A stretch of 64,000 nt of DNA. Origin: Lachnospiraceae bacterium (lineage in GTDB: Bacteria; Bacillota; Clostridia; Lachnospirales; Lachnospiraceae). The notes beneath the pieces are model-generated. The model did not search any database. It saw only the letters and a list, made by a program, of their open reading frames with translations, and was not told where the DNA came from. Both the position numbers and the translations under genes were made by a program. Shown here piece after piece: positions 45,190 to 64,000 of the stretch (its first letter is position 1; the number at the start of each line of letters is the position of its first letter). The stretch spans positions 1-64,000 of the forward strand of contig JAILOK010000058.1 in the NCBI GenBank assembly GCA_024690825.1, written 5' to 3'.

Positions 45190-47508
45190 TTAAACCGCCC
45201 TGCTGTCGTGGCAGGTAAAATATATTATCTGATAAGGTTCGGATATCCTCTTTAAAAGATTTATGCCGCCCTTCACCCTGTCATTATCCAAATTAACAAA
45301 GGGGTCGTCAAGTATGAGGAACGGTCTTTCTTCTTCATACATCGCTTCGATCATCGCCATCCTGCGGCACAGACCGACCAGATCCCTGTATCCGCCGCTT
45401 AAAAGTCCTGTATCCCTGCTCACGCCTCTGTTCCTTACCATTACCCTCAAGTCGGCATCCAGTTCATATTCCTTTCCGTCATCCGGTGACAGGACACTGT
45501 AATACTTGTCAAAGGCGCGCTTTACCGGTTCCATGTATCTGCCTGCAAAGGCCGCTTTTGCCTTTTCAAGATAATCCTTTGTATCCGATATGATATCATA
45601 TCTGTACTGCAGTTCCTCCAGCTTTTCCTTAAGTCTTTCATTTTCCTCCTCGTCGGAGGCTATGTCCTCCAGGACTTCATTGCACCCGTCAAGCTCTTCC
45701 TCATATTTTTTCAGGGTTTCATCCTCTCTTTCAACTTCATCGGAAAGAGTCTCAAATTCGTCATCGAGCGCATCAAGATCCTTATCGGGAAGTATCACTT
45801 CTTCATCAAGCGGCTCCCCTTCATGATCCTTTTCAAATCTTTCAAGCCTGGCTTCCTGTTCCCTGACCCTTTCGACAGCGGAGGAAAGATTCCTTACCCT
45901 GTCCTTCAGCGCCAGAAAAGCCTCGGAAGGATCAACACTCTCACTACCGCCGTATTTCTTTACAAGTTCGTTTATTACCTTTACTACAGCCTCTCTCTCC
46001 TTTACGGCTTCGTCAAAGCCGGCTCTCTTTTTTGAAAGTTCCCTCTGTTTTGCGGCATCTTCCCTGACCCCCTCAAGGAAGGGCGCTGCCTCTTTTACCT
46101 CTCCTTCCTCTCCGAGCATCCTTAAGAATTCCCCGAAAGTTTCCTCCGTCTTTTTTATGAACCTCTCGTCATCTTCTATGCTCTTTGCCAGCTCTATGGC
46201 TGTCTCATCCTTCTGTCTCTTTATCTTCTTTATCGAAAGAAGCGACACCACAGCTGCAAGCAGACATACACCCGCTGCCGCAAGGGCCGGTGTGAAATAC
46301 TGCCGGTTTGAAAAACCGAAAAACACGGATGCCGCGGCAAGAACAATAAACACCGCCGCAAAGACCACTCTTCCCGTATTCCTTCTCTTTTCGTCAAGCC
46401 TTTCCTTTTTCTTCATCTCCTGCACAAGCTTCAGATTGGCTTTTTTTGAAGGCAGGACATTTTTCCTTGCCGCGCACTCGCTGCAAAGAGCCTGCATTCT
46501 CGATATCTCTTCTTCCTGCGGAAATCCGTTCACATAGGTATCATAGATCCTCTCCTCTTCGCTTCGTTCATCCGGAGACAATCTCAGATCCCTGATATTC
46601 TGATCAAGTCCCGTAAGCTTTGCCGCCTTTTTTGAAATATCCTCCAATACATCGTCTTCGGGCACTCCGTCCGGGAATGAATTACGGATCTCCTCCTTCT
46701 TTTTCTCCGCCTCCTTCAGGTCTTCTTTGAGGCTTTCATATTCGGATTTAACCCTCAGCCTGTCCTTTTGGACGGAGATCATTTTTATCTCTTCCCTTAT
46801 GCCCTTAAGCTTCTTTTTGTTTTCCTCCTGCAGCTCTCCGAGTCTTTTGATCTGATCGAGAAGTTCGTCCCTGTGCGCTTCATGAGAAGCCTTTGACGAC
46901 ACTCTCACCTCACGCTGGGCGATATCTTCCTTAAGCCTTGCTATGGCTCCCGTTTTTCTAAACGGTGTCAGATTGTCTGCCTCTTTTTTGAGTTTTTCCT
47001 GTACCAGCGTAAAACGTCCCATATCATCGGTGTCGCTCACATTTCCGATCTTCGCGTTTATTGCGCTCGTAGCTTCCGTGGCGCAGTCCTGCTGGCCTAT
47101 GAACACGGTCCGCTCAAAGGAATCACTGTCGATGCCAAAGAGCTCCTCCCCGATCTTTTCCGTATAATCAGAACTTTTCAGATTTGTCTTTGCATCATAC
47201 AGGTCAAATGTGCTTCCTTTTTTCTCGCTGAAGGTACGCTCGATGCGATAGGTCTTTCCCTTAGCCTCGAAAACGAGCATGCCTCCGTATCCGCCGCCCT
47301 GCCAGGGCAGAAATCTCTTTCTCTCGTTTTCAAGTTCGCTTCGTTTTCCCTCATTGTCAAAGCCGTAAAACATAACCCTGATAAAGGAAGCAAGCGTGCT
47401 CTTTCCCCATCCGTTTTCGTGAACAATGGTATTTATCCCGTCTTTAAAGAGATACCTGTAATCCTTCAGTATCCCGAAATTATCTATCTGCAGACTGATC
47501 AGCTTCAT
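45190..47508 (-). CDS. YhaN-like SMC-type AAA ATPase (SbcC-related)
   Basis: A 772-residue ATPase of the SbcC/Rad50 class. Walker A is HENGWGKSTLASFIR near the N-terminus; the C-terminal end has the ABC signature LLSGGYRDLVGL and Walker B FLILDDPFVNLD. Long coiled coils lie between. Two hydrophobic helices near residue 380-430 (VVFAAVFIVLAAASVFFGF, LAAAGVCLLAAVVSLLSI) are typical of YhaN rather than SbcC and would tether it to the membrane. I chose the ATG at 47508 because GGAGG sits seven bases before it and it overlaps the nuclease stop (ATGA); an ATG at 47514 is too close to the site. It pairs with the following nuclease in DNA end processing or a related task. Confidence 0.88.
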   Translation of the reverse strand: MKLISLQIDNFGILKDYRYLFKDGINTIVHENGWGKSTLASFIRVMFYGFDNEGKRSELENERKRFLPWQGGGYGGMLVFEAKGKTYRIERTFSEKKGSTFDLYDAKTNLKSSDYTEKIGEELFGIDSDSFERTVFIGQQDCATEATSAINAKIGNVSDTDDMGRFTLVQEKLKKEADNLTPFRKTGAIARLKEDIAQREVRVSSKASHEAHRDELLDQIKRLGELQEENKKKLKGIREEIKMISVQKDRLRVKSEYESLKEDLKEAEKKKEEIRNSFPDGVPEDDVLEDISKKAAKLTGLDQNIRDLRLSPDERSEEERIYDTYVNGFPQEEEISRMQALCSECAARKNVLPSKKANLKLVQEMKKKERLDEKRRNTGRVVFAAVFIVLAAASVFFGFSNRQYFTPALAAAGVCLLAAVVSLLSIKKIKRQKDETAIELAKSIEDDERFIKKTEETFGEFLRMLGEEGEVKEAAPFLEGVREDAAKQRELSKKRAGFDEAVKEREAVVKVINELVKKYGGSESVDPSEAFLALKDRVRNLSSAVERVREQEARLERFEKDHEGEPLDEEVILPDKDLDALDDEFETLSDEVEREDETLKKYEEELDGCNEVLEDIASDEEENERLKEKLEELQYRYDIISDTKDYLEKAKAAFAGRYMEPVKRAFDKYYSVLSPDDGKEYELDADLRVMVRNRGVSRDTGLLSGGYRDLVGLCRRMAMIEAMYEEERPFLILDDPFVNLDNDRVKGGINLLKRISEPYQIIYFTCHDSRAV

Positions 47509-52611: not shown

Positions 52612-55600
52612 ATGAAAAAGAGATGGAAGATCACTCTGTCGAGGCTTCTTGTACTGGTATTGACCATGCAGAGCCTCTTTGCAGGAAGCGTTTTCGGCGC
52701 GGAAAATGTGCCGGCGCCCGAAACGGTTTCGGAAAGCAGCGTGGAGGAAGGCATCCCCTCGGATGAAAATACCGCACCGTCCGAAACGCCCGCTGACAGC
52801 GCTCCCGGAGAAACTGTCTCCGGCAATGACGGATCCGATGAGACCGTCTCCGAAGACGACGCAGCACCCGATGAGATCATCGAAGATGTGACCGTTTCGG
52901 AAGATACAACAGGGGAGATTTCGGAAAATGAAACGGTTTCGGAGGATGAAGCAGATGATCTTACCGAAGAAAACTCCGGAGATGCGGAAACGGAAACAAA
53001 AAATGTTACCGTAATGCTCTACGCGGTAGGCTCCGACCTCGAAAGAAACAGCCTTGCTTCCCGAATGGATCTGACAGAGATAATGGAAGGTATCGCAGCA
53101 AGAACAAATAACGACTCCGTCGCCCCTTCCATAAACTTCATCGTACAAACAGGAGGAATGAAGCAGGGAACTGCCCAGGAACAGAGTGCCTACAGCAAAC
53201 TCATCGAGGACAGAAAGACTGAGCTTGCCGGTGACAAACTTGCAAATTTCAACAGATTCATAGATGCCGGTCTTGATTATACAAAGAACCAGCGCTGGGA
53301 GCTTTCCGGCGATTCGATAAAACCGGCTTTAAATGATGAAGGAGTAAACCGTGACCGCGCCATGACAGGAGCAGTCGACGATGTAAATGAGGAACTCCTT
53401 GACTTTATCGATACAACCACGGAAAAATATCCCGCAAAGCAGTATATCCTTATTTTCTGGGATCACGGCTCCGGCCCCATGAGAGGCTTCGGCCAGGATG
53501 AAAGAAAGGACGATGTGTCCCTACTTTCAAATCATGTGGCAGCCACCATGAAAAAAACACAGGTTTTCGGCAAAGAGAAGAAAAAGCTTGCCTGGATCGG
53601 ATATGACGCATGCCTGATGGCAAATATCGAAACAGCGATCACATGGGCTCCCTATGCCAGATTCTTTTCCGGTTCCGAGGAACTTGAAGGCAACGACGGT
53701 TGGGATTATGTTAACTGGGTTAAAATGCTCTGCACCGCAGCCGCCGAGAAGAATAATGATTTTACTGACCAGCCCTATGTGGACCGACTTGTCGGAGGTG
53801 TTACAGGCAAAGGCCAGGCCGCCGGTCTTGTCGAGACAAATATAGATGATTTCGTTAAACATTATAAGGGCAGCGGCAACGCGACCCAGTCACTTGTGGA
53901 TCTGAGCGAGATCAATGATGCTGGTCTGGCGCTTAAGGATTATGCCGATGCCCTACTTCCCATTCTTGAGGATCATCCTCTGGATGCCTACTGGGCACTT
54001 CGTTACATCAGATCCTCTACCAAGGGATTCGGCAGCGCGCATCCGCACATCATGGATCTGAACGATTTCATCAGCCGCACAAAGGACAGTGCTTTTATCA
54101 ACACTCTTAAGATAAGAGGCGTGAACGACATAAATACCGCGGATATCAACAAGCTGAACACTGCAGCATCAAATCTTGAAACCAGGCTTAAAGCAGCCGT
54201 TATATCCGAAAACCATACCTCTGACATAAAAGCGCCTCTTGGCGGACTTACCGTATTTTTCCCTTATGTATCGCCGTCAACTCCGATCAATGAAAACGAA
54301 AGGGAGGACGAATGGATCGACTACCGCAGTTATTATGAAAACAGCGTGTTCAGCGATTCTTCCTATGTCGGCATCTTCGGATCTTTAGATTCCTACAGGG
54401 ATCTTGTAAGTCTCTACCTTTCCATAAGAGATGCGGGTGAAGCTCTCGGAGACAATAATGCCGCCCAGAGCACAGCGGAAACTGCCTTTAATGCATCTCT
54501 TTCCAAATACAAGGTCTCTGATCTTAAGGAAAAAAGCAATGTGGCCAAACTTCCTTCCGAGGTCGCCTCACACCGCATACAGAACGAGGCGATAAAGATC
54601 TGTGTTGACGCTACGAGCGTCAATTTCTTAAGACGCGATACGGTCACGCTTGAAGGTTTCGACCAACAGCTCTACCTGCAGGATAATAATGAAAACAAAC
54701 TGTTCCTCGGATACCTTCCTTCAGGAGCTGTTTCGGAATTTTTTGGTCAGCGTCAGCAGCAGCTTACCAATCACAACCCCGTTAAATGGTTTGAGGTTGA
54801 AAGCGGCGGAAAAAAATATCCTCTGCCCGTTTATTTCCATTATCTGGCAGACGGATCCGTGAACGCGCTTACCGATTATATGGATATATTCATCCCTGTT
54901 GCCAATACCGAGGATAACTCCATCTACATGCTCGATTATTCATTTAACGGCGGCGATACCGGAACCCTTAACGGCTATTTGGGATTCAGCTATGAGTACG
55001 CACAGTTTGAACGCTATGTACCGATTGAAGGCGCAGACGATGCTGCAAAAAAGACCTTCCTTAAGAATCAGATAGGCGACAAGATTGCCCTCATCGGCAA
55101 TCTGGCAGAAAGCCTGGATAACCGCAGCGGGGTTAATTTCAATCACGAAACACTCAGTGAATATGCCTATGCCACAGACATTGAAACGGATGATCTTATT
55201 GACCGTGTAAAACGAAATGTTACTGAATTTTCCGGAGCCTCTGTGGGAAATTACAAGGTCAGCATGAATTATGTATTAAAGGACATCTTTGATACGGCCT
55301 ATATCTACAAGGATTCCTATAAGGAAAAGCTTTCCGTTTCAGTAAAGCTTAAGGACGGACTTTCGGGGTTCAAAAAGGGTGATTACTTAAAGCGCGATGA
55401 CATCGAACTTTCCATCAAGGATCCTGCCGGAAAGAAAGTCGAAAATTACACTATAGATGGCAGTGTCATTCCTCTCGAAAAAACCCTCTTCTGCATGTAT
55501 GATGACCATAATACGGAGATCCCGATCACCGAAGATGCAGGATACCTTTGGGCGGATATTGACGGAAAGGGATCAAAGAAGATCGAAGCAACTCCGGATA

Positions 55601-57942
55601 CAACGATCTTCCTTTCCGAAAAGGCTTTGGATATAAAGACCTACAGCTCAATAGACTGTGCCACGGAAGACCTTGATTCCGTATTTACGCTTGTTTCCGA
55701 CACCAACAAGATCACCCTGCCGGTCTATGATCCCGAAACAGACAATCTTAATGTCAGCATACTTTCAACTCCTTACTATTATCTGGCATACAAGGCATCA
55801 AGGCTGAGCATAACCGATTTTGCGGATTACTTCAGCGTAAAACTCGGAAATATCGATGTAACAAAGGATAAAAAATTAACCGTGAAATTTGCGGTAAAGG
55901 AAGACACGGGCTTTGTATCCAAAAATGCCACGGCTGTGCTCAAGTCCGGACTCAAGCCCGGAGCCGAGATAGCAGCCTATGTGGAATTTGAAGGACTCAA
56001 TGCCGACAATGAATCAAACCCGCTCGTCCTTAAAAAGTCACCCGCAAAGATAGTGGGAACCGAGCCGGTGAAGACCTACAGGCTTCAGAATCTTCAGAAG
56101 GATTACAGCAAGGCGATTTCAGTCACTTATTATGACGCAAAGAATAACCCGGTTAAGGATGTCAAAAATTACAACCACACGAAACTGTCGGAGATCACGA
56201 CCGATAACAGCGCCACGATAGATACCAAGGGTATCGATAAGGCCATTTCGGCAAACTACTTAAATATTCCTCTTTCCGCCAACGGTACATGGAAACCGGC
56301 CTTCTCCGACTATTTTGAGGTCACCGAATTTGTTCTTTCGGAATACCACGTGCTTGATGTTAAAAATGTGCGCTTCCTTTCTTCCGTGGACAGATCTGCT
56401 CTTAGCACCGCTGTTTCCGTTCCCATGGACAAGTCTGCGGTAAAGGGAAGGATCCAGATCAGCGACAATGCTCTGGTCATAAAGGGAGATGATCCCGTGG
56501 AGTGGTACTTCAAGGCAGGAACAGCAAATCCCGTGATCGTATATAAAAATGATGAGCCTGCTTCATACAGGGATGTCGATCTGGTGGAAAAGAACAATAA
56601 CGGAAAATGGATGTTCTATCTGCCCGAAAACTTCGACTGCTCTGATGTGATATTCTATGCAGGCTATGCCGCAAAGGCTGAGAATCAGGGAGATGTGGAA
56701 GCGGTCATCGATCCCATCACTCCCGTTGAATATACGGGCCGTGATCTGGTGACCACCAAATCCGGCAAGTCCGGTTCAAAGGTCATAGGCCTTGTCGTAA
56801 GATCAGCCGACAAAGACACGATCCTTACCGAAGGCACTGATTATACCGTAACCTATAAAAACAACAAAAAGGTTGCGGACATAAATGACAGCAAGGCACC
56901 GACTCTCATCATAAAGGGAAAGAATGATTATAAAGGGCTTAAATACAAGGTAAACTTCTCCATACTTCCGGCCGACTTTGCCAATGCATCGATCTCTGTT
57001 AACCGTAAGTATGTCGCTCTTAACAAGAGTAAAAAGAAGGGTATCAATCTTGAGGCAACGGTCAAGCTTCCCGGCGGAAAGGCCGTGCCCGCAAGCCGTG
57101 TTGAACTTCATTTCTATAAGAAGGACGACAACGGTCTCCGTACCGAGGTGACCAGACAGCAGCTTGCCTCATATTACACGACAAACAAGTACTATCCTCT
57201 GTATGTTTCCGCAAAGGCCATCCAGCCCGCGGATGAGAATTCAAACTATGTGACCGGAAGCAGGATAGATCCCAAAAACGAGGTTCTTATCTACGCTTAT
57301 CCGAAGTCAAACGGAAAGCCCAAGGTCACCTTAAAGAAGAGCAAATATGATTATAACGAGAACGGAACAAAGATAGCAGATATCTTCACCAAGGCAAACA
57401 TCAAAAAGCTCAAGGCAGGAAACAAGACCGTTTCCACAGGCCAGATCAGACCGGTTAAGGCATATTATGACAGTGCTCTTACAAAGCCCGTGGATTCGGA
57501 TGTCCTTGTCAATGCCGGCACCTATTATCTTGATATCGGCCTGACAGACAAGTATGCGGCGCAGTATCGTTACTTTAACTCAGCAGCTCTCAAGGTGACC
57601 ATCGTCGGCACAAAGATCAAGAAAAAAAATGTTGCTCTGACGACCAAAAAGATCAAGGCGGTAAGCGGCAATGAGAGAGAACCCGAATCTCTTCCTCTGG
57701 TACTGAGATTCGCATCCGACTTCGAATGGAATACACTTAAGGTCAGATGCAAACAGAGAGACCAGAGCGTCAAAGAATTCATTATCCACAATGATGATGA
57801 AGACTGCGAAGAAAGAGACGGAATGCTTTATTACACCTTAAAAGGCGTTGATAACGGAGCAGTCGGAAACTATTCGATAACCGTTTACGGAACCGGCGCA
57901 TACTCCGGAAACATAAGCTTCGATTACAAAGTCACAAGATAA
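52612..57942 (+). CDS. Giant secreted clostripain-family (C11) cysteine protease
   Basis: A 1776-residue exported protein. The signal peptide LLVLVLTMQSLFAGSVFGA is followed by an acidic linker (35-128) with TVSE, TVSGN and VSEDE motifs. The C11 domain starts at about 131 (VTVMLYAVGSDLE); His285 in FWDHGSG and Cys334 in GYDACLMAN form the catalytic dyad. The family cuts after Arg or Lys and often matures itself. The remaining 1200 residues are Ig-like and lower-complexity modules, including a bacterial surface module near 1370-1470 (IDPITPVEYTGRDL, TVTYKNNKKV). AAGGAGG gives a strong start. No sorting motif is present. It is convergent with the response-regulator gene across a palindromic repeat pair. 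Confidence 0.9.
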   Translation: MKKRWKITLSRLLVLVLTMQSLFAGSVFGAENVPAPETVSESSVEEGIPSDENTAPSETPADSAPGETVSGNDGSDETVSEDDAAPDEIIEDVTVSEDTTGEISENETVSEDEADDLTEENSGDAETETKNVTVMLYAVGSDLERNSLASRMDLTEIMEGIAARTNNDSVAPSINFIVQTGGMKQGTAQEQSAYSKLIEDRKTELAGDKLANFNRFIDAGLDYTKNQRWELSGDSIKPALNDEGVNRDRAMTGAVDDVNEELLDFIDTTTEKYPAKQYILIFWDHGSGPMRGFGQDERKDDVSLLSNHVAATMKKTQVFGKEKKKLAWIGYDACLMANIETAITWAPYARFFSGSEELEGNDGWDYVNWVKMLCTAAAEKNNDFTDQPYVDRLVGGVTGKGQAAGLVETNIDDFVKHYKGSGNATQSLVDLSEINDAGLALKDYADALLPILEDHPLDAYWALRYIRSSTKGFGSAHPHIMDLNDFISRTKDSAFINTLKIRGVNDINTADINKLNTAASNLETRLKAAVISENHTSDIKAPLGGLTVFFPYVSPSTPINENEREDEWIDYRSYYENSVFSDSSYVGIFGSLDSYRDLVSLYLSIRDAGEALGDNNAAQSTAETAFNASLSKYKVSDLKEKSNVAKLPSEVASHRIQNEAIKICVDATSVNFLRRDTVTLEGFDQQLYLQDNNENKLFLGYLPSGAVSEFFGQRQQQLTNHNPVKWFEVESGGKKYPLPVYFHYLADGSVNALTDYMDIFIPVANTEDNSIYMLDYSFNGGDTGTLNGYLGFSYEYAQFERYVPIEGADDAAKKTFLKNQIGDKIALIGNLAESLDNRSGVNFNHETLSEYAYATDIETDDLIDRVKRNVTEFSGASVGNYKVSMNYVLKDIFDTAYIYKDSYKEKLSVSVKLKDGLSGFKKGDYLKRDDIELSIKDPAGKKVENYTIDGSVIPLEKTLFCMYDDHNTEIPITEDAGYLWADIDGKGSKKIEATPDTTIFLSEKALDIKTYSSIDCATEDLDSVFTLVSDTNKITLPVYDPETDNLNVSILSTPYYYLAYKASRLSITDFADYFSVKLGNIDVTKDKKLTVKFAVKEDTGFVSKNATAVLKSGLKPGAEIAAYVEFEGLNADNESNPLVLKKSPAKIVGTEPVKTYRLQNLQKDYSKAISVTYYDAKNNPVKDVKNYNHTKLSEITTDNSATIDTKGIDKAISANYLNIPLSANGTWKPAFSDYFEVTEFVLSEYHVLDVKNVRFLSSVDRSALSTAVSVPMDKSAVKGRIQISDNALVIKGDDPVEWYFKAGTANPVIVYKNDEPASYRDVDLVEKNNNGKWMFYLPENFDCSDVIFYAGYAAKAENQGDVEAVIDPITPVEYTGRDLVTTKSGKSGSKVIGLVVRSADKDTILTEGTDYTVTYKNNKKVADINDSKAPTLIIKGKNDYKGLKYKVNFSILPADFANASISVNRKYVALNKSKKKGINLEATVKLPGGKAVPASRVELHFYKKDDNGLRTEVTRQQLASYYTTNKYYPLYVSAKAIQPADENSNYVTGSRIDPKNEVLIYAYPKSNGKPKVTLKKSKYDYNENGTKIADIFTKANIKKLKAGNKTVSTGQIRPVKAYYDSALTKPVDSDVLVNAGTYYLDIGLTDKYAAQYRYFNSAALKVTIVGTKIKKKNVALTTKKIKAVSGNEREPESLPLVLRFASDFEWNTLKVRCKQRDQSVKEFIIHNDDEDCEERDGMLYYTLKGVDNGAVGNYSITVYGTGAYSGNISFDYKVTR

Positions 57943-57947
57943 AAAAA

Positions 57948-58016
57948 GTGACAGGGGGACGGTCCCGGTGACAACTTTTCAGGAAAAAGTTGTCACCGAG
58001 ACCGTCCCCCTGTCAC
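57948..58016. terminator. Head-to-head GGGACGGT repeat pair acting as a bidirectional terminator-like hairpin (copy 4)
   Basis: Two 32-base arms (starting GTGACAGGGGGACGGTCCCG and ending ACAACTTTT) are inverted around CAGGA with a single mismatch, giving one 69-base hairpin. It fills the gap between the C11 protease stop (57942) and the response-regulator stop (58020) on opposite strands. The ACTTTT/AAAAGT inner ends and A-rich flank allow terminator function in both directions, and the sequence belongs to the same repeat family as 5468, 31675 and 37124. Confidence 0.8.
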
Positions 58017-58019
58017 ATT

Positions 58020-58787
58020 CTATGATATGCTTTTTTCTATTTTATCCAACAGCTCATTAAGCGAAGGAGGTTTCAAAAGATAACCCTGCGGCTTTAGTTT
58101 CAGCACTGCCTCGACATGAGCCTTGTCCTTTATTCCCGTTAAAAAGATCACCGGTATATCCTTAAGATCATCCTCGGCCTTTATCATCTCAAAGGTCTGT
58201 TTTCCGTCACAGACCGGCATCTCATAATCCAAAAGGATGAGATCCGGCCTTTTCTTTCCGATCTCCGTCATTGCTTTTATCCCCGAGGATGCTACCCTCA
58301 CTTCGTAATAACCCCTGAGCATCTCCTTTATGCTCCTTAAGGTCAGAGCATTGTCATCGACCACGAGGATATCCTTAACTCTGTCATCTTCTTTTAAGAC
58401 CAGCTTCTCATCATCCTTTTCCTCAACCTCAAGCTCCAGTCTCCTGCAGACGGCCTGGATTATATCCCTGTTTTCCACGGGTCTTATCAGATTTTCAAAC
58501 TGTCCGTCCTCGTAATATCTTAAAAAAGAGTTTTTCTCGCTTTCAGTACCTATTGTGAGTACCGGGATATGATGATATTCAGCCGCCAGAAGTCTGAAGA
58601 GTCCCCTGTCGTAATCCTGTGCGCCAACCAGACTTATGACCACAAGCTCCGGATCGTACATCTTCAGCATGCCCTCGAGCGCATCGGATTTCAGTTCGCA
58701 GATCTGCACCCGGAAAAGCTCGGACAGGCTTTTATTGATATCCTTTAACACATCGTTGGTTTTTCCGAACAACAGTATTTTTTTCAT
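58020..58787 (-). CDS. Response regulator with two receiver domains and no output domain
   Basis: A 255-residue protein. The N-terminal half (1-115) has a receiver-like fold but lacks the usual acidic cluster and phospho-acceptor Asp, so it is degenerate. The C-terminal receiver (about 135-255) is intact: ILVVDDNALT, phospho-acceptor Asp187 in LLDYEMPVCDG, FLTG and the Lys in LLKPPS. No DNA-binding or enzyme domain is present, so it may pass phosphate on or act by protein contact. GGAGGGTATT precedes the ATG. It lies 14 bases after the hybrid kinase stop, so the two form a relay unit. Confidence 0.88.
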   Translation of the reverse strand: MKKILLFGKTNDVLKDINKSLSELFRVQICELKSDALEGMLKMYDPELVVISLVGAQDYDRGLFRLLAAEYHHIPVLTIGTESEKNSFLRYYEDGQFENLIRPVENRDIIQAVCRRLELEVEEKDDEKLVLKEDDRVKDILVVDDNALTLRSIKEMLRGYYEVRVASSGIKAMTEIGKKRPDLILLDYEMPVCDGKQTFEMIKAEDDLKDIPVIFLTGIKDKAHVEAVLKLKPQGYLLKPPSLNELLDKIEKSIS

Positions 58788-58801
58788 AATACCCTCCTAT
58801 A

Positions 58802-60712
58802 TTACAATGTCCCCCTGATCTTTGACAGTATCCGGGACACCTCATCCTGGTCAAGATCTGCGACCGCCCTCTTCAGTTTGTCAAATTTACTCTCAACCTC
58901 TTCCGGCAGCTTAAATGATGAAAGTTTTTTTACCGCATCATCCGCTCCGTCTATATCCATCTCTTCCATGGCATCCTTTAGCATCTTCAAAAGAAGCTTA
59001 AGGATCTCTTCCTTTATCTCTTCCTTATCATCCGGACCTTCATCCTTTGTACCGTTATATTCCCCGAGCAGTTTTTTATAGCTCCTCCATTCCTTTATGA
59101 AAAGATCATGAAGTGTCTCTATGGTGTCCGTATCTTTTTCCGATGCAGCCCTCTCAAGGACCGCCGCCATGCCGGAAAGCGTGAAGATGCCGACCGAGGC
59201 CGAGGCGCTCTTCATTCCGTGGACCATTATCCTGTAATCATCGATCGTATCCGGCAGCAGATCCCTGTATCTTTGAAGCTCATCTGCCTGTATGTCAATG
59301 GAATCTTCAAATTCCGACAAAACCGCGTCAAGCACCTCCTTTTTCTGCATCCGCATCAATGCAATTCTCCAGTCAAGACCGAAGACGGGAGGTAATGTTT
59401 CGATCAGTTCCTCAAGATCGGCATTTCCTTTATCCTTCCCGGCACCGCCGTCAGAAGCTGCCCTGACCTTCCTTCCGGGAAGCAGCTCCTTTACGGTATT
59501 TTCCAGCTTGTCTCCGGATACCGGCTTTGAGAGGTATCCGTCAAAACCGTCCTCAAGATAACTCTCCCTCATCCCTGCCACGGCATTTGCCGTAAGTATT
59601 ATGACCGGAGTGGCTGCGCACGGCCCATCCTTCATCTCCTTTATCCTCTTCATGGTCTCGATCCCGTCCATGCCGGGCATCATATGATCCATGAATATGA
59701 TGTCAAAATGCTGCACCGAGGCAAGCTTCAGCGCATCGATCCCGTTATCTGCTTCGGTTATCCTGATCTTTGTCTGTTTAAGCAGGGACACAAAAACCTT
59801 ACGGTTCATGCTGTTGTCATCCACCAGAAGAATGTCGGCTTCCGGCGCCGTAAAAGAGCCCGCATAGGAATAGTTTTCCGACATGAGGTTTTTGATATTC
59901 TCCTCATAATCGCCGACGGGAGTTTCGTCGGTGACCTTCTGTCTTAAGTCAAAATAAAACCTTGATCCCTTTCCGTACTCGCTCTTAAGCTGGAGCTCGG
60001 AATCCATAAGCTTTAACAGCTTCATGGTGATCGGCACGCCGAGCCCTGTTCCCTCTACATTTCTGTTATGCTCGTCACCGATCCTCTGAAAATTAGAAAA
60101 AAGCTTGACCATTTCATCAAGCTTTATGCCTACACCGGTGTCCTCAACTTCAAAACGAAGCAGGACACTGTCCTCCTCCTTGTTTTCTTCCTTTAAGCTT
60201 ACCCGCAGCTCCACCGAGCCCTTCCGGGTGTATTTTACGGCATTGGTGAGCAGGTTCATCAGGATCTGCTTTATCCTTATATCATCACCGTAAAGTCCCG
60301 ACGGGATATCCGTGGATACCTTTACCCGAAATTCCAGTCCCTTTTCTTCCGCCCTGAAGCGGATCATGTTTTCCACATCCGCTATCACGGCAGGAACCGA
60401 ATACTCTGCCGGAACGATCTCCATTTTTCCTGCTTCGATCTTGCTTAAGTCGAGGATGTCATTGATGATGGAAAGAAGCGTACGTCCGGCCATCCGTATA
60501 TCCATCGCATATTCCCTGATCGCGCTGTCGGTACTTTCCCTTAAGATCATCTCATCCATACCGAGTATCGTATTGATAGGGGTTCTTATCTCATGCGACA
60601 TGCTCGCAAGGAAATAAGATTTTGCCTTGTTGGCATTTTCCGCGATCTTTTTCTGCTCCTCTATTTCACTGATATAATCCTTTATCATCTGATTCATCAG
60701 ATCCACCTGCAT
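58802..60712 (-). CDS. Soluble hybrid histidine kinase with receiver and Hpt domains, no sensor domain
   Basis: A 636-residue kinase. It starts with a short helix and then the kinase core at once: His40 in SHEIRTPINTILGMDEM, TNAVKYT, DTGVGI and GTGLGVPI. The receiver has Asp342 in FMDHMMPGMDG and KPVSGDK, and an Hpt domain has His498 in VHGMKSASAS. The C-terminus is an extra helical region (about 560-636). It has no membrane segment or sensory domain, unlike its paralogue at 49424, so the signal must come through a partner. The start has a modest site; ATG at 60697 follows AGGTGG and is an alternative. The small peptide gene 60734-60943 ends 21 bases before it. Confidence 0.88.
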   Translation of the reverse strand: MQVDLMNQMIKDYISEIEEQKKIAENANKAKSYFLASMSHEIRTPINTILGMDEMILRESTDSAIREYAMDIRMAGRTLLSIINDILDLSKIEAGKMEIVPAEYSVPAVIADVENMIRFRAEEKGLEFRVKVSTDIPSGLYGDDIRIKQILMNLLTNAVKYTRKGSVELRVSLKEENKEEDSVLLRFEVEDTGVGIKLDEMVKLFSNFQRIGDEHNRNVEGTGLGVPITMKLLKLMDSELQLKSEYGKGSRFYFDLRQKVTDETPVGDYEENIKNLMSENYSYAGSFTAPEADILLVDDNSMNRKVFVSLLKQTKIRITEADNGIDALKLASVQHFDIIFMDHMMPGMDGIETMKRIKEMKDGPCAATPVIILTANAVAGMRESYLEDGFDGYLSKPVSGDKLENTVKELLPGRKVRAASDGGAGKDKGNADLEELIETLPPVFGLDWRIALMRMQKKEVLDAVLSEFEDSIDIQADELQRYRDLLPDTIDDYRIMVHGMKSASASVGIFTLSGMAAVLERAASEKDTDTIETLHDLFIKEWRSYKKLLGEYNGTKDEGPDDKEEIKEEILKLLLKMLKDAMEEMDIDGADDAVKKLSSFKLPEEVESKFDKLKRAVADLDQDEVSRILSKIRGTL

Positions 60713-60733
60713 GTCTTCCCGGAAATCAAAAGT

Positions 60734-60943
60734 CTATTTCCGTTTTCCCGTAGTATCGATCCCTTCATCCTTCTTCACGGCAGCCCTGACATTTTTCAGA
60801 TCATCAAGCGCCAGTTCATCGGATATATCAGTTACCCGGGCAGTCTTAAACAGCTTATTGTAAAGTCTGTTTTTATGATCGCTCCCTTTTGTAAAATCCG
60901 CGTTCCGGATCATATTCTCAATATCAAAACTGTTATCTGCCAT
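60734..60943 (-). CDS. Small leader-peptide-like protein of unknown function
   Basis: A 69-residue protein starting MADNSFDIENMIRNADFTKG. The ATG at 60943 follows GAAGAGGGATGAG, which decides it over an in-frame start at 61057 that would overlap the preceding gene. The body is charged and helical, with DHKNRLYNKLF, then a leader-like DELALDDLKNVRAA where bacteriocin leaders often have xxDLxxVxGG; here RAA replaces the double Gly. The C-terminal 14 residues are Lys-rich and contain no Cys, Ser or clear core. It lies 70 bases after the Nif11-like gene and 21 bases before the sensor-less kinase. It could be a precursor peptide, a kinase regulator or both; I do not recognise a named family. Confidence 0.6.
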   Translation of the reverse strand: MADNSFDIENMIRNADFTKGSDHKNRLYNKLFKTARVTDISDELALDDLKNVRAAVKKDEGIDTTGKRK

Positions 60944-61013
60944 CTTCTCATCCCTCTTCACTCTGTTTTTATTGTGTATCAGATAACGGGCTGCTCTTAT
61001 GATTACCGGTCTT

Positions 61014-61304
61014 TCATATAAACAACCGTACATACCAGGGCAGCTCAAGTTTTCCACCGGCTACGGTCCTCATTTCGGATATATCTATCTCTCCTTCCGA
61101 TGCGGCCTTCTTTGCTTCCTGCGCTTCATCAAAAGTAAATTCCAGTCCCTCTGCCTTTGCTATGGGAAAGATTATCGCTTCGAATACGGCTCTCTCATCC
61201 GTCCTGTCGCCTTCAAAAGCCATTGCAGCATGCTGGAGTTTTTCCTGCAGCAGTTCATCCTTCATGAACCTTTCTTCAAATTTCGTAACATTATCCTTAG
61301 CCAT
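61014..61304 (-). CDS. Nif11-like leader peptide with GG motif and 12-residue tail (candidate RiPP precursor)
   Basis: A 96-residue protein. Residues 1-75 resemble the Nif11-type leader of ribosomally made, modified peptides: KFEERFMKDELLQEKLQHA and the later IAKAEGLEFTFDEAQEA match the family pattern FlxxxxxDxxLqekL...AkxxGyxFtxeE. SEMRTVAGG (Gly83-Gly84) fits a double-glycine cleavage site. The tail KLELPWYVRLFI (85-96) would be the core; it has no Cys and one Trp and one Tyr. GGAGGTATCGAT gives a strong start. No radical-SAM enzyme, lanthionine synthase, YcaO or peptidase-transporter is present in the window, so the precursor role is inferred from the leader and GG motif only. Confidence 0.65.
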   Translation of the reverse strand: MAKDNVTKFEERFMKDELLQEKLQHAAMAFEGDRTDERAVFEAIIFPIAKAEGLEFTFDEAQEAKKAASEGEIDISEMRTVAGGKLELPWYVRLFI

Positions 61305-63438: not shown

Positions 63439-63545
63439 ACTTTCCCCCCCTTTTCATTCAACTTTTCATGATGTTTCGATTCACTTGTAAAACATCTCAG
63501 TGTTTATTATTTATACGGACAAAATCTTAAAATGAGACACGAACT

Positions 63546-64000
63546 TTATTTTTTCCCAAAATATTTTAAAACGACCGAGGTAATATCATCAAATCCGGGG
63601 GCCTCCCCGACAAATTCCGCCACCGCTTTTCTGACATTATTGTCCATATCCTCTGCGGATGCAGTCCTGTCTTTATTAAGCGCCTCAAGAAGCCTTTCCT
63701 TCCTGAACATGTTTTCCTGCAGATCCCTGGCTTCGGTCACGCCGTCGGTGTACTGATAAAGGATATCTCCGGGCCGGAGCATAAAGGATCCGGCTTCATA
63801 ATCCATGCTTTCCATGGCAGCCACAACAAAACTGTGCACATCCTCGATTATCGCAAAATCCTTTCCTGCGCGGCATATCGCAGGATACTCATGTCCGGCG
63901 TTCACATAGTCAACCTGTCCGGTACTTACGGTAAGAACTCCAATCCACAGCGTCACAAACATCCCGGCATCATTTTCCCCGCAGAGTTCTTTATTTACTT
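63546..64000 (-). CDS. SpoIIE/RsbU-type PP2C phosphatase, C-terminal part
   Basis: The reading frame runs open to the window end, so the 5' part is missing; about 150 residues are seen. NDAGMFVTLWIGVLTVSTGQ, NAGHEYPAI, GDILYQYTDGVTEA and the C-terminal GFDDITSVVLKYF are the PP2C/SpoIIE motifs, with the metal-binding Asp pair in TDGVTEA and DDITS. Such phosphatases act on anti-sigma-factor antagonists in partner-switching control. The stop lies 107 bases upstream of the serine hydrolase start; 63439-63545 holds no gene, and no clear promoter was found there. Confidence 0.85.
   Translation of the reverse strand, partial: VNKELCGENDAGMFVTLWIGVLTVSTGQVDYVNAGHEYPAICRAGKDFAIIEDVHSFVVAAMESMDYEAGSFMLRPGDILYQYTDGVTEARDLQENMFRKERLLEALNKDRTASAEDMDNNVRKAVAEFVGEAPGFDDITSVVLKYFGKK

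Follow-up and report, generated by a model that had tools for sequence, protein, structure and literature searches.

Partner switching of the RsbU/SpoIIE-STAS-anti-sigma type places a SpoIIE-type phosphatase and a STAS antagonist beside a sigma factor. In the PhyR-NepR-sigma EcfG switch of Alphaproteobacteria a phosphorelay and a very small protein are combined with an extracytoplasmic function (ECF) sigma factor, and FlgM is the exported anti-sigma factor of flagellar assembly. A further described group is formed by the NHLP/Nif11 (N11P) clusters with TIGR03794/03796/03797 export (Haft et al. 2010, PMC2887384). Here we analyse a stretch of 64,000 nucleotides from a Lachnospiraceae contig (hereafter the window), in which genes for a Nif11-like precursor peptide (P1), a small protein (P2), a hybrid histidine kinase and a regulator follow each other on the minus strand with gaps of 70, 21 and 14 bases. 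The order, the single strand and the spacing given in a preliminary description of the window are all reproduced. That description also proposed the peptides as the input of the kinase; the evidence favours instead a sigma-controlled export regulon with the phosphorelay within its output, and we consider it fairly likely that the four genes are the distal part of such a peptide-export regulon.

The likeness to the NHLP/Nif11 clusters lies in the Nif11-related double-glycine leader, the short variable tail and a peptide gene by a three-gene C39 ABC exporter. By the same comparison, the window's P1 scores under the curated Nif11 cut-offs, no modifying enzyme is recognised in its cluster, and the cluster adds ECF, STAS and SpoIIE genes together with a promoter motif of its own. 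A word search does not find 'sigma' in the main text of PMC2887384, nor Nif11, NHLP or sigma in the portion of the Hungate1000 bacteriocin paper (PMC13289728) that could be searched, and no paper describing sigma control of Nif11/NHLM clusters was among the matches listed in the open-licence literature. As in RsbU/SpoIIE partner switching, a phosphatase and a STAS protein are encoded next to a sigma factor, which here is of the ECF type, and an RsbW-type anti-sigma kinase is not recognised in the cluster. The locus resembles the PhyR-NepR-EcfG switch in that an ECF sigma factor stands with a very small protein, and a phosphorelay leads to a receiver protein lacking a DNA-binding domain, whereas the phylum differs and the regulator lacks a sigma-like domain, only receiver sequence being above Pfam cut-off. 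FlgM is a parallel only if P2 is an anti-sigma factor with an export signal, and then by proposed role. The kinase has the HisKA-HATPase-REC-HPt order of BarA/TorS-type hybrid kinases and similarity to them, but no sensor or membrane part, and its partner is a separate protein with a pseudo-receiver and a receiver.

The window edge at 64 kb cuts the gene cluster, and the contig (C5) extends to 75170. Past this edge, about 5-10 kb upstream in the same cluster, contig and strand, stand the export genes that had been suggested for a search elsewhere in the genome (Table 1). The ABC1 frame contains the C39 motif ECGAASL, and the best match of the HlyD-like protein is the C-terminal part of the TIGR03794 model. 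The phosphatase has dCache and HAMP matches below cut-off. Gene calls outside the tool searches are heuristic and their start codons uncertain; the ECF sigma start as called is probably too late, the stop-to-stop frame scoring higher. Comparisons were made with a sample of mostly draft genomes, one per species, in which the genus set comprises 48 genomes and the window's own genome is G000. ECF sigma, STAS and SpoIIE genes occur together in the own cluster, in G230, in G201 and in another genus; at G220:C122 the contig ends within the frame that follows STAS, and the N-terminus of this frame shares 35% identity with the window phosphatase. TIGR03797 matches 42 of the 48 genus genomes at E<=1e-100, with 32 above its cut-off. 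Among 21 NHLM loci (the own cluster and 20 mainly from the top of the TIGR03797 match list) an ECF gene lies within 8 kb of ABC2 in six and a STAS gene in six, and of the five loci whose ABC2 most resembles the window's (>=1065 bits, phmmer) all have a STAS gene and four an ECF gene. In G079 a short frame beside STAS and SpoIIE genes resembles an RsbW-type anti-sigma kinase by eye.

P1 and several other genes are preceded by a shared promoter motif, TGTC(G/T)(C/T)AT, 14 bases (15 at the window's P1), CGT and an A/T-rich end, mostly TAAAT, whose two-block form we take to be that of ECF promoters. It was derived from eight sites, namely the P1 upstream regions at six loci, the window serine hydrolase and a lipoprotein gene of G230. 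The strict pattern has 11 matches in ten genus genomes (G000 3, G220 2, G230 3, G201 1, G225 2; none in G231, G215, G079, G200 or G222) against five for the reversed-pattern control, three of the latter in the five matched genomes. Ten of the 11 lie roughly 40-130 bases before genes for P1 (4), serine hydrolases (2), lipoproteins of one family (2) or double-glycine peptides (2), the exception being G225:C45, and the same gene types follow four of the five matches outside the derivation set. One hydrolase so preceded (G230:C328) is 72% identical to the window's. All three matches in the own genome fit this pattern, standing before P1, the serine hydrolase and the first gene of an unlinked double-glycine peptide pair at C65. 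These two consecutive peptides (C65:45057-45311 and 45387-45629; stretch L236) have cores of about 60 residues that by eye are Cys-rich and zinc-ribbon-like, and no exporter was recognised in the stretch fetched around them.

No strict match falls between P1 and the regulator, so that transcription of kinase and regulator would start at the P1 promoter; with the tight spacing, this makes one transcript for P1, P2, kinase and regulator plausible. An inverted repeat directly past the regulator stop could be its end, and the repeat's core is found again in the own genome (L138, L139, L236), in G214 (L130) and in L047. Because the motif sets the kinase downstream of the presumed sigma switch, the kinase may be output and not input. 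Searched in the window with N14 only and at most three mismatches, the motif recovers the serine hydrolase site alone (one match against 0.26 expected, reached by 22 of 100 shuffles) and misses the P1 site because of its N15 spacer. A generic sigma-70 promoter scan stayed at chance level, with 10 found against 8.7 expected.

For P1 itself, the GG site and 12-residue tail of the preliminary description are confirmed, AGG being followed by KLELPWYVRLFI, and P1 is a Nif11-like precursor of the double-glycine type. Single-sequence searches yielded little: P1 against 200 family genomes (E<=0.01) returned itself and one ordinary Nif11-type peptide, and P2 in the own genome returned itself and a paralogue on contig C36. 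Profiles were therefore needed, and a two-row profile was built for each protein from its own-genome and G220 rows. The P1 profile matches 16 of the 48 genus genomes at E<=0.05, the weaker matches inspected being mostly ordinary Nif11 peptides, and six at E<1e-10: the own genome, G220 (three times), G230, G225, G201 and G215. The P2 profile has matches in 13 of the 48 genomes at E<=0.05 and in five at E<1e-20 (own, G220 twice, G230, G201, G215); G225 has P1 and no P2 match. P1 and P2 thus occur together in five of the 48 genomes at six loci: the window, G220:C58, G220:C144 with two P1 copies, G230:C333, G201:C2 and G215:C132. A seven-row P1 profile finds only the own genome at E<=1e-8 among 397 family genomes, a draw that listed from this genus the own genome, G079 and G228. 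All seven P1-family members match PF07862 (E<=0.01, best 3.1e-7) and TIGR03798 (E<=1, best 2.8e-8), and the GG is invariant in all seven. The P1 leader is 35-63% identical to those of its six genus relatives, while their tails, in a family range of 6 to 32 residues, share 0-3 aligned identities with that of P1; the G220:C58 tail resembles one from G220:C144. P1 would be cleaved by a C39 peptidase, one of which is encoded in the cluster.

The surroundings of the pair vary. NHLM genes are in view at three of the six loci (the window genome, G230, G201), and kinase and regulator adjoin the pair at two (the window and G220:C58), other genes standing there at four. The gene order is found again in G220:C58 with a lipoprotein gene inserted; the other four loci differ. 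In G230 a 133-aa frame after P2, cut by the contig end and without an NCBIfam match, shares 63% identity with the beginning of the window's ABC2. G201 carries SpoIIE, STAS, ECF and NHLM genes on the P1 side, with ABC1 called as two frames, and G215 has a further double-glycine peptide between P1 and P2 on a short contig that shows neither kinase nor NHLM genes. In G220:C144, P2 is followed by genes for an M4 peptidase and for a serine hydrolase with 81% identity to the window's, and the gene divergent from P1 in G220:C58 and G230:C333 encodes an M13 peptidase. Peptidases and hydrolases with lipoprotein-like starts (M13, M4, beta-lactamase-family serine hydrolase) recur in the P1 flanks of L117, L190, L189 and the window. 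At G220:C144 (L189, 1-8887) a radical SAM/SPASM gene stands in front of the two P1 copies, one of which has a Cys in its tail, and judging from these genes this version of the system may modify its peptides; L189 also encodes another double-glycine peptide, and this one has the promoter motif.

No Pfam family matches P2, and its single-sequence structure model is of low confidence (mean predicted local distance difference test 57.4, predicted template modelling score 0.23). The preliminary description of P2 as a second leader-like peptide is borne out by the leader-like ending, although AA and not GG stands at the would-be cleavage site. Searches of the genus find P2-like proteins of about 51-103 aa with a common motif ..DF(S/T)KxxDxKxRL, one member (L224) coming from a stretch fetched for its NHLM genes, and a 12-member profile finds five of the 397 family genomes at E<=1e-4. 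At two of three further loci, from other genera, the genes stand with NHLM and ECF genes, in the order HlyD-ABC1-ABC2-ECF-P2like in G080, with 178 bases between P2like and ECF, and P2like-rSAM-SpoIIE-STAS-ECF-HlyD-ABC1-ABC2 on one strand in G298. The NHLM-linked members have a leader-like ending LSDDELDxVxAA. The own-genome paralogue at C36 stands behind an ECF gene and has a true AGGG site, and a contig-cut frame by it is 62% identical to the G080 ABC2. The place of the family near ECF genes, the leader-like endings and the AGGG site suggest that P2 could be an anti-sigma factor, an exported peptide or both. A role of P2 as the second exported precursor of a two-peptide product, and not as a regulator, would agree with the short tails behind the leader-like ending of NHLM-linked members, the AGGG of the C36 paralogue, and the fact that P2-like proteins are the only small peptides recognised by the NHLM genes of G080 and G298, one of them preceding a radical SAM gene. 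Yet the P1-linked P2 proteins have AA and not GG and tails that are partly conserved, mostly charged and unlike those of P1, and other family members, several of them by ECF genes, lack the leader-like part, so that we regard a purely exported P2 as possible but on the unlikely side. A bolder idea, on which we would place little weight, is that P2 founds a family of very small anti-sigma factors with an NHLM export signal, its secretion reporting whether the exporter works and freeing the ECF sigma for further peptide production; this would amount to a secretion-coupled switch, akin to that of FlgM, for peptide natural products in Firmicutes, and in the window it would also be wired to an output-less phosphorelay. 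Another P2-like type, with a PPVM C-terminus, is seen in L203 (G244), L204 (G234), L202, L197 and L194, with ECF adjacent in L203 and L204 and 5.9 kb off in L202, and no NHLM genes recognised in these stretches.

The kinase has HisKA, HATPase_c and receiver domains above Pfam cut-offs and an HPt match below it (21.1 against 24.6), and the motifs SMSHEIRTP, FMDHMMPG and MVHGMKSA can be read from its sequence. As described, it is soluble and has no sensor, with 37 residues ahead of the H-box MSHE and no membrane segment by hydropathy count. The regulator described as two receivers without output has only receiver-type sequence above Pfam cut-off, but the first is a pseudo-receiver with no Asp at the phosphorylation column in all 19 aligned full-length proteins, the window's included, whereas all 19 retain DD, Asp and Lys in the second. 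At least 562 kinase relatives were confirmed in a scan of genome contigs and 80 loci retained. In a survey of 103 kinase frames from the window and 91 loci, with membrane segments again judged by hydropathy count, fewer than 60 residues precede the H-box in five, the window's and four that run into a stretch end; five more frames lack a membrane segment but have 65-259 residues there. The sister kinase of G220 carries a HisKA_7TM region (75.9 bits against a cut-off of 28.6), and at G220:C58 a lipoprotein gene lies between P2 and this seven-transmembrane (7TM) kinase where the window has 21 bases. Since the sister has a 7TM sensor and the other short frames run into stretch ends, the window kinase is best seen, from such comparisons, as a shortened relative of membrane-sensor kinases. 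At the P2-kinase junction an assembly error is possible. A one-step deletion from a G220-like kinase was considered and rejected: it fails to account for the first 15 or so residues, which differ from G220.

These data bear on two other accounts of the phosphorelay. Were exported P1 (or P2) sensed by the sensor-less kinase, directly or after uptake, and passed to the two-receiver protein as a peptide quorum circuit, the tight one-strand spacing would be natural, as would the peptides, lipoprotein gene, kinase and regulator of G220:C58 and the HPt protein and hybrid kinase that follow a second NHLM/Nif11 cluster of the own genome at C53. The kinase is, however, beside the P1-P2 pair in only two of six loci, its sister has a 7TM region of its own, and the window kinase lacks a membrane part by which it could meet an exported peptide. 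Blastp (E<=1) over the window and 100 kinase/regulator stretches detects P1 and P2 in the window and L117 but in none of the other 99; in 76 of the 90 other stretches that bear the kinase, at least 1 kb is available ahead of it; and a related kinase lies within 8 kb in only two of the 21 examined NHLM loci (L141, L222). The proposal that the peptides are the kinase input is thus not upheld, and we hold such a circuit to be improbable. The kinase and regulator could also be a decaying passenger, an orphan phosphorelay without a specific role, transcribed by read-through from the P1 promoter after loss of the 7TM sensor and lipoprotein gene. The lipoprotein gene and 7TM kinase of G220, set against 21 bases and a kinase starting shortly before HisKA in the window, agree with this, as do catalytic motifs that remain where the input region is missing. 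Against it, the remaining domains are intact and conserved with respect to G220 (67% protein identity by blastp, 70% DNA identity) in frames without a stop, and the differing first residues mean that plain deletion is insufficient; this account seems to us unlikely, though less so than the circuit. The kinase looks like a later, shortened addition and not the peptide's receptor.

The best reading within a sigma-controlled export regulon treats kinase and regulator as added in this lineage and transcribed from the P1 promoter, and P2 as a candidate sigma regulator. A signal at the phosphatase, suggested by its weak Cache and HAMP matches, would act via STAS and free the cluster's ECF sigma, which would transcribe the P1-P2-kinase-regulator operon as well as the gene for the serine hydrolase. 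P1 is thus probably switched on by a dedicated sigma factor and exported by the transporter beyond the window, going by gene content and motif. The C39 domain of ABC1 would cut P1 after AGG, and the 12-residue tail would be exported, probably unmodified, as none of the genes called between HlyD and the regulator, both included, was recognised as encoding a modifying enzyme. P2 may act on the sigma factor, in the simplest case as an anti-sigma factor that provides negative feedback. The shortened kinase would have come to stand in the operon in this lineage, where kinase and regulator may tune the response from inside the cell. From the functions generally ascribed to these families we infer that SpoIIE and STAS lead to the ECF sigma, the sigma to the motif and P1 to an exported tail. 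Such a regulon would turn an isolated oddity into something testable: an ECF sigma with a readable promoter motif would mark peptide genes, including those far from an exporter, and orphan precursors in these gut bacteria could thus be found by promoter. If P2 controls the sigma factor, it would add to the known regulators a class of very small proteins that no Pfam family covers.

Several observations weigh against the sigma-controlled export regulon. P1 scores 17.4 against 23.8 for PF07862 and 10.4 against 32.3 for TIGR03798, and of the export proteins ABC1 and ABC2 are above their NHLM cut-offs and the HlyD-like protein below. No RsbW-type anti-sigma kinase was recognised among the own-cluster calls, to which no dedicated profile search was applied, and the STAS step is therefore without its usual partner. 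Six of the eight derivation sites are themselves among the 11 strict motif matches, and the window's P1 spacer has 15 bases where nine of the ten other strict matches have 14. A looser pattern is unenriched, with 16 matches in five genomes against 14 reversed and, in the own genome, six against six, three of the six inside genes; only the strict form is thus informative. In G201, P1 and P2 are separated by 798 bases and two other genes. P2 is a candidate anti-sigma factor by its neighbourhood: 10 of 19 P2-like loci and one of 80 control loci have an ECF sigma gene on their stretch (Fisher 6e-8), where ECF genes from P2-like loci went in part into the ECF model, the controls are kinase loci, two P2-like loci (L203, L204) are near-identical and locus lengths differ. 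The other nine have no ECF gene in view, several being cut by contig ends, and two of four later P2-like loci (G420 and, in the own genus, G228) are without ECF and NHLM genes.

Table 1. Features of the four-gene unit, its promoter motifs and the upstream cluster. Positions are those of the window unless given for the contig; paired scores are match against cut-off.
Feature	Position	Strand	Remarks
P1, Nif11-like precursor, 96 aa	61304-61014	minus	leader to AGG (residue 84), 12-residue tail KLELPWYVRLFI
P2, small protein, 69 aa	60943-60734	minus	motif DFTKGSDHKxRL; leader-like DDLKNVRAA ending
Hybrid histidine kinase, HisKA-HATPase-REC-HPt, 636 aa	60712-58802	minus	no sensor domain
Regulator, 255 aa	58787-58020	minus	pseudo-receiver and intact receiver, no output domain
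Inverted repeat, 35-nt arms (GTGACAGGGGGACGGTC...)	57945-58019		directly past regulator stop; dispersed palindromic repeat
ECF-type motif before P1	61344-61374	minus	TGTCGCAT-N15-CGTATATA
ECF-type motif before serine hydrolase	63510-63539	minus	TGTCTCAT-N14-CGTATAAA
Lipoprotein-like serine hydrolase, beta-lactamase family PF00144	63438-61384	minus	second gene with motif
SpoIIE-type phosphatase	contig C5 65408-63546; window part 63546-64000	minus	window part is C-terminal; 152 against 25 bits
STAS protein	contig 65708-65412	minus	63.4 against 53.45 bits
ECF sigma	contig 66098-65715	minus	72.6 against 42.9 bits
NHLM ABC2	contig 68817-66214	minus	TIGR03797, 800.2 against 709.4 bits
C39-peptidase ABC (NHLM ABC1), 714 aa	starts near contig 70976	minus	TIGR03796, 968.4 against 853.3 bits (full frame)
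HlyD-like protein, 207 aa	contig 71596-70973	minus	TIGR03794, 147.9 against 156.2, below cut-off

Convergent with the four-gene unit, on the plus strand at 52612-57942, a gene encodes a secreted protein of 1776 aa with a resemblance to clostripain-type peptidases seen by eye only.

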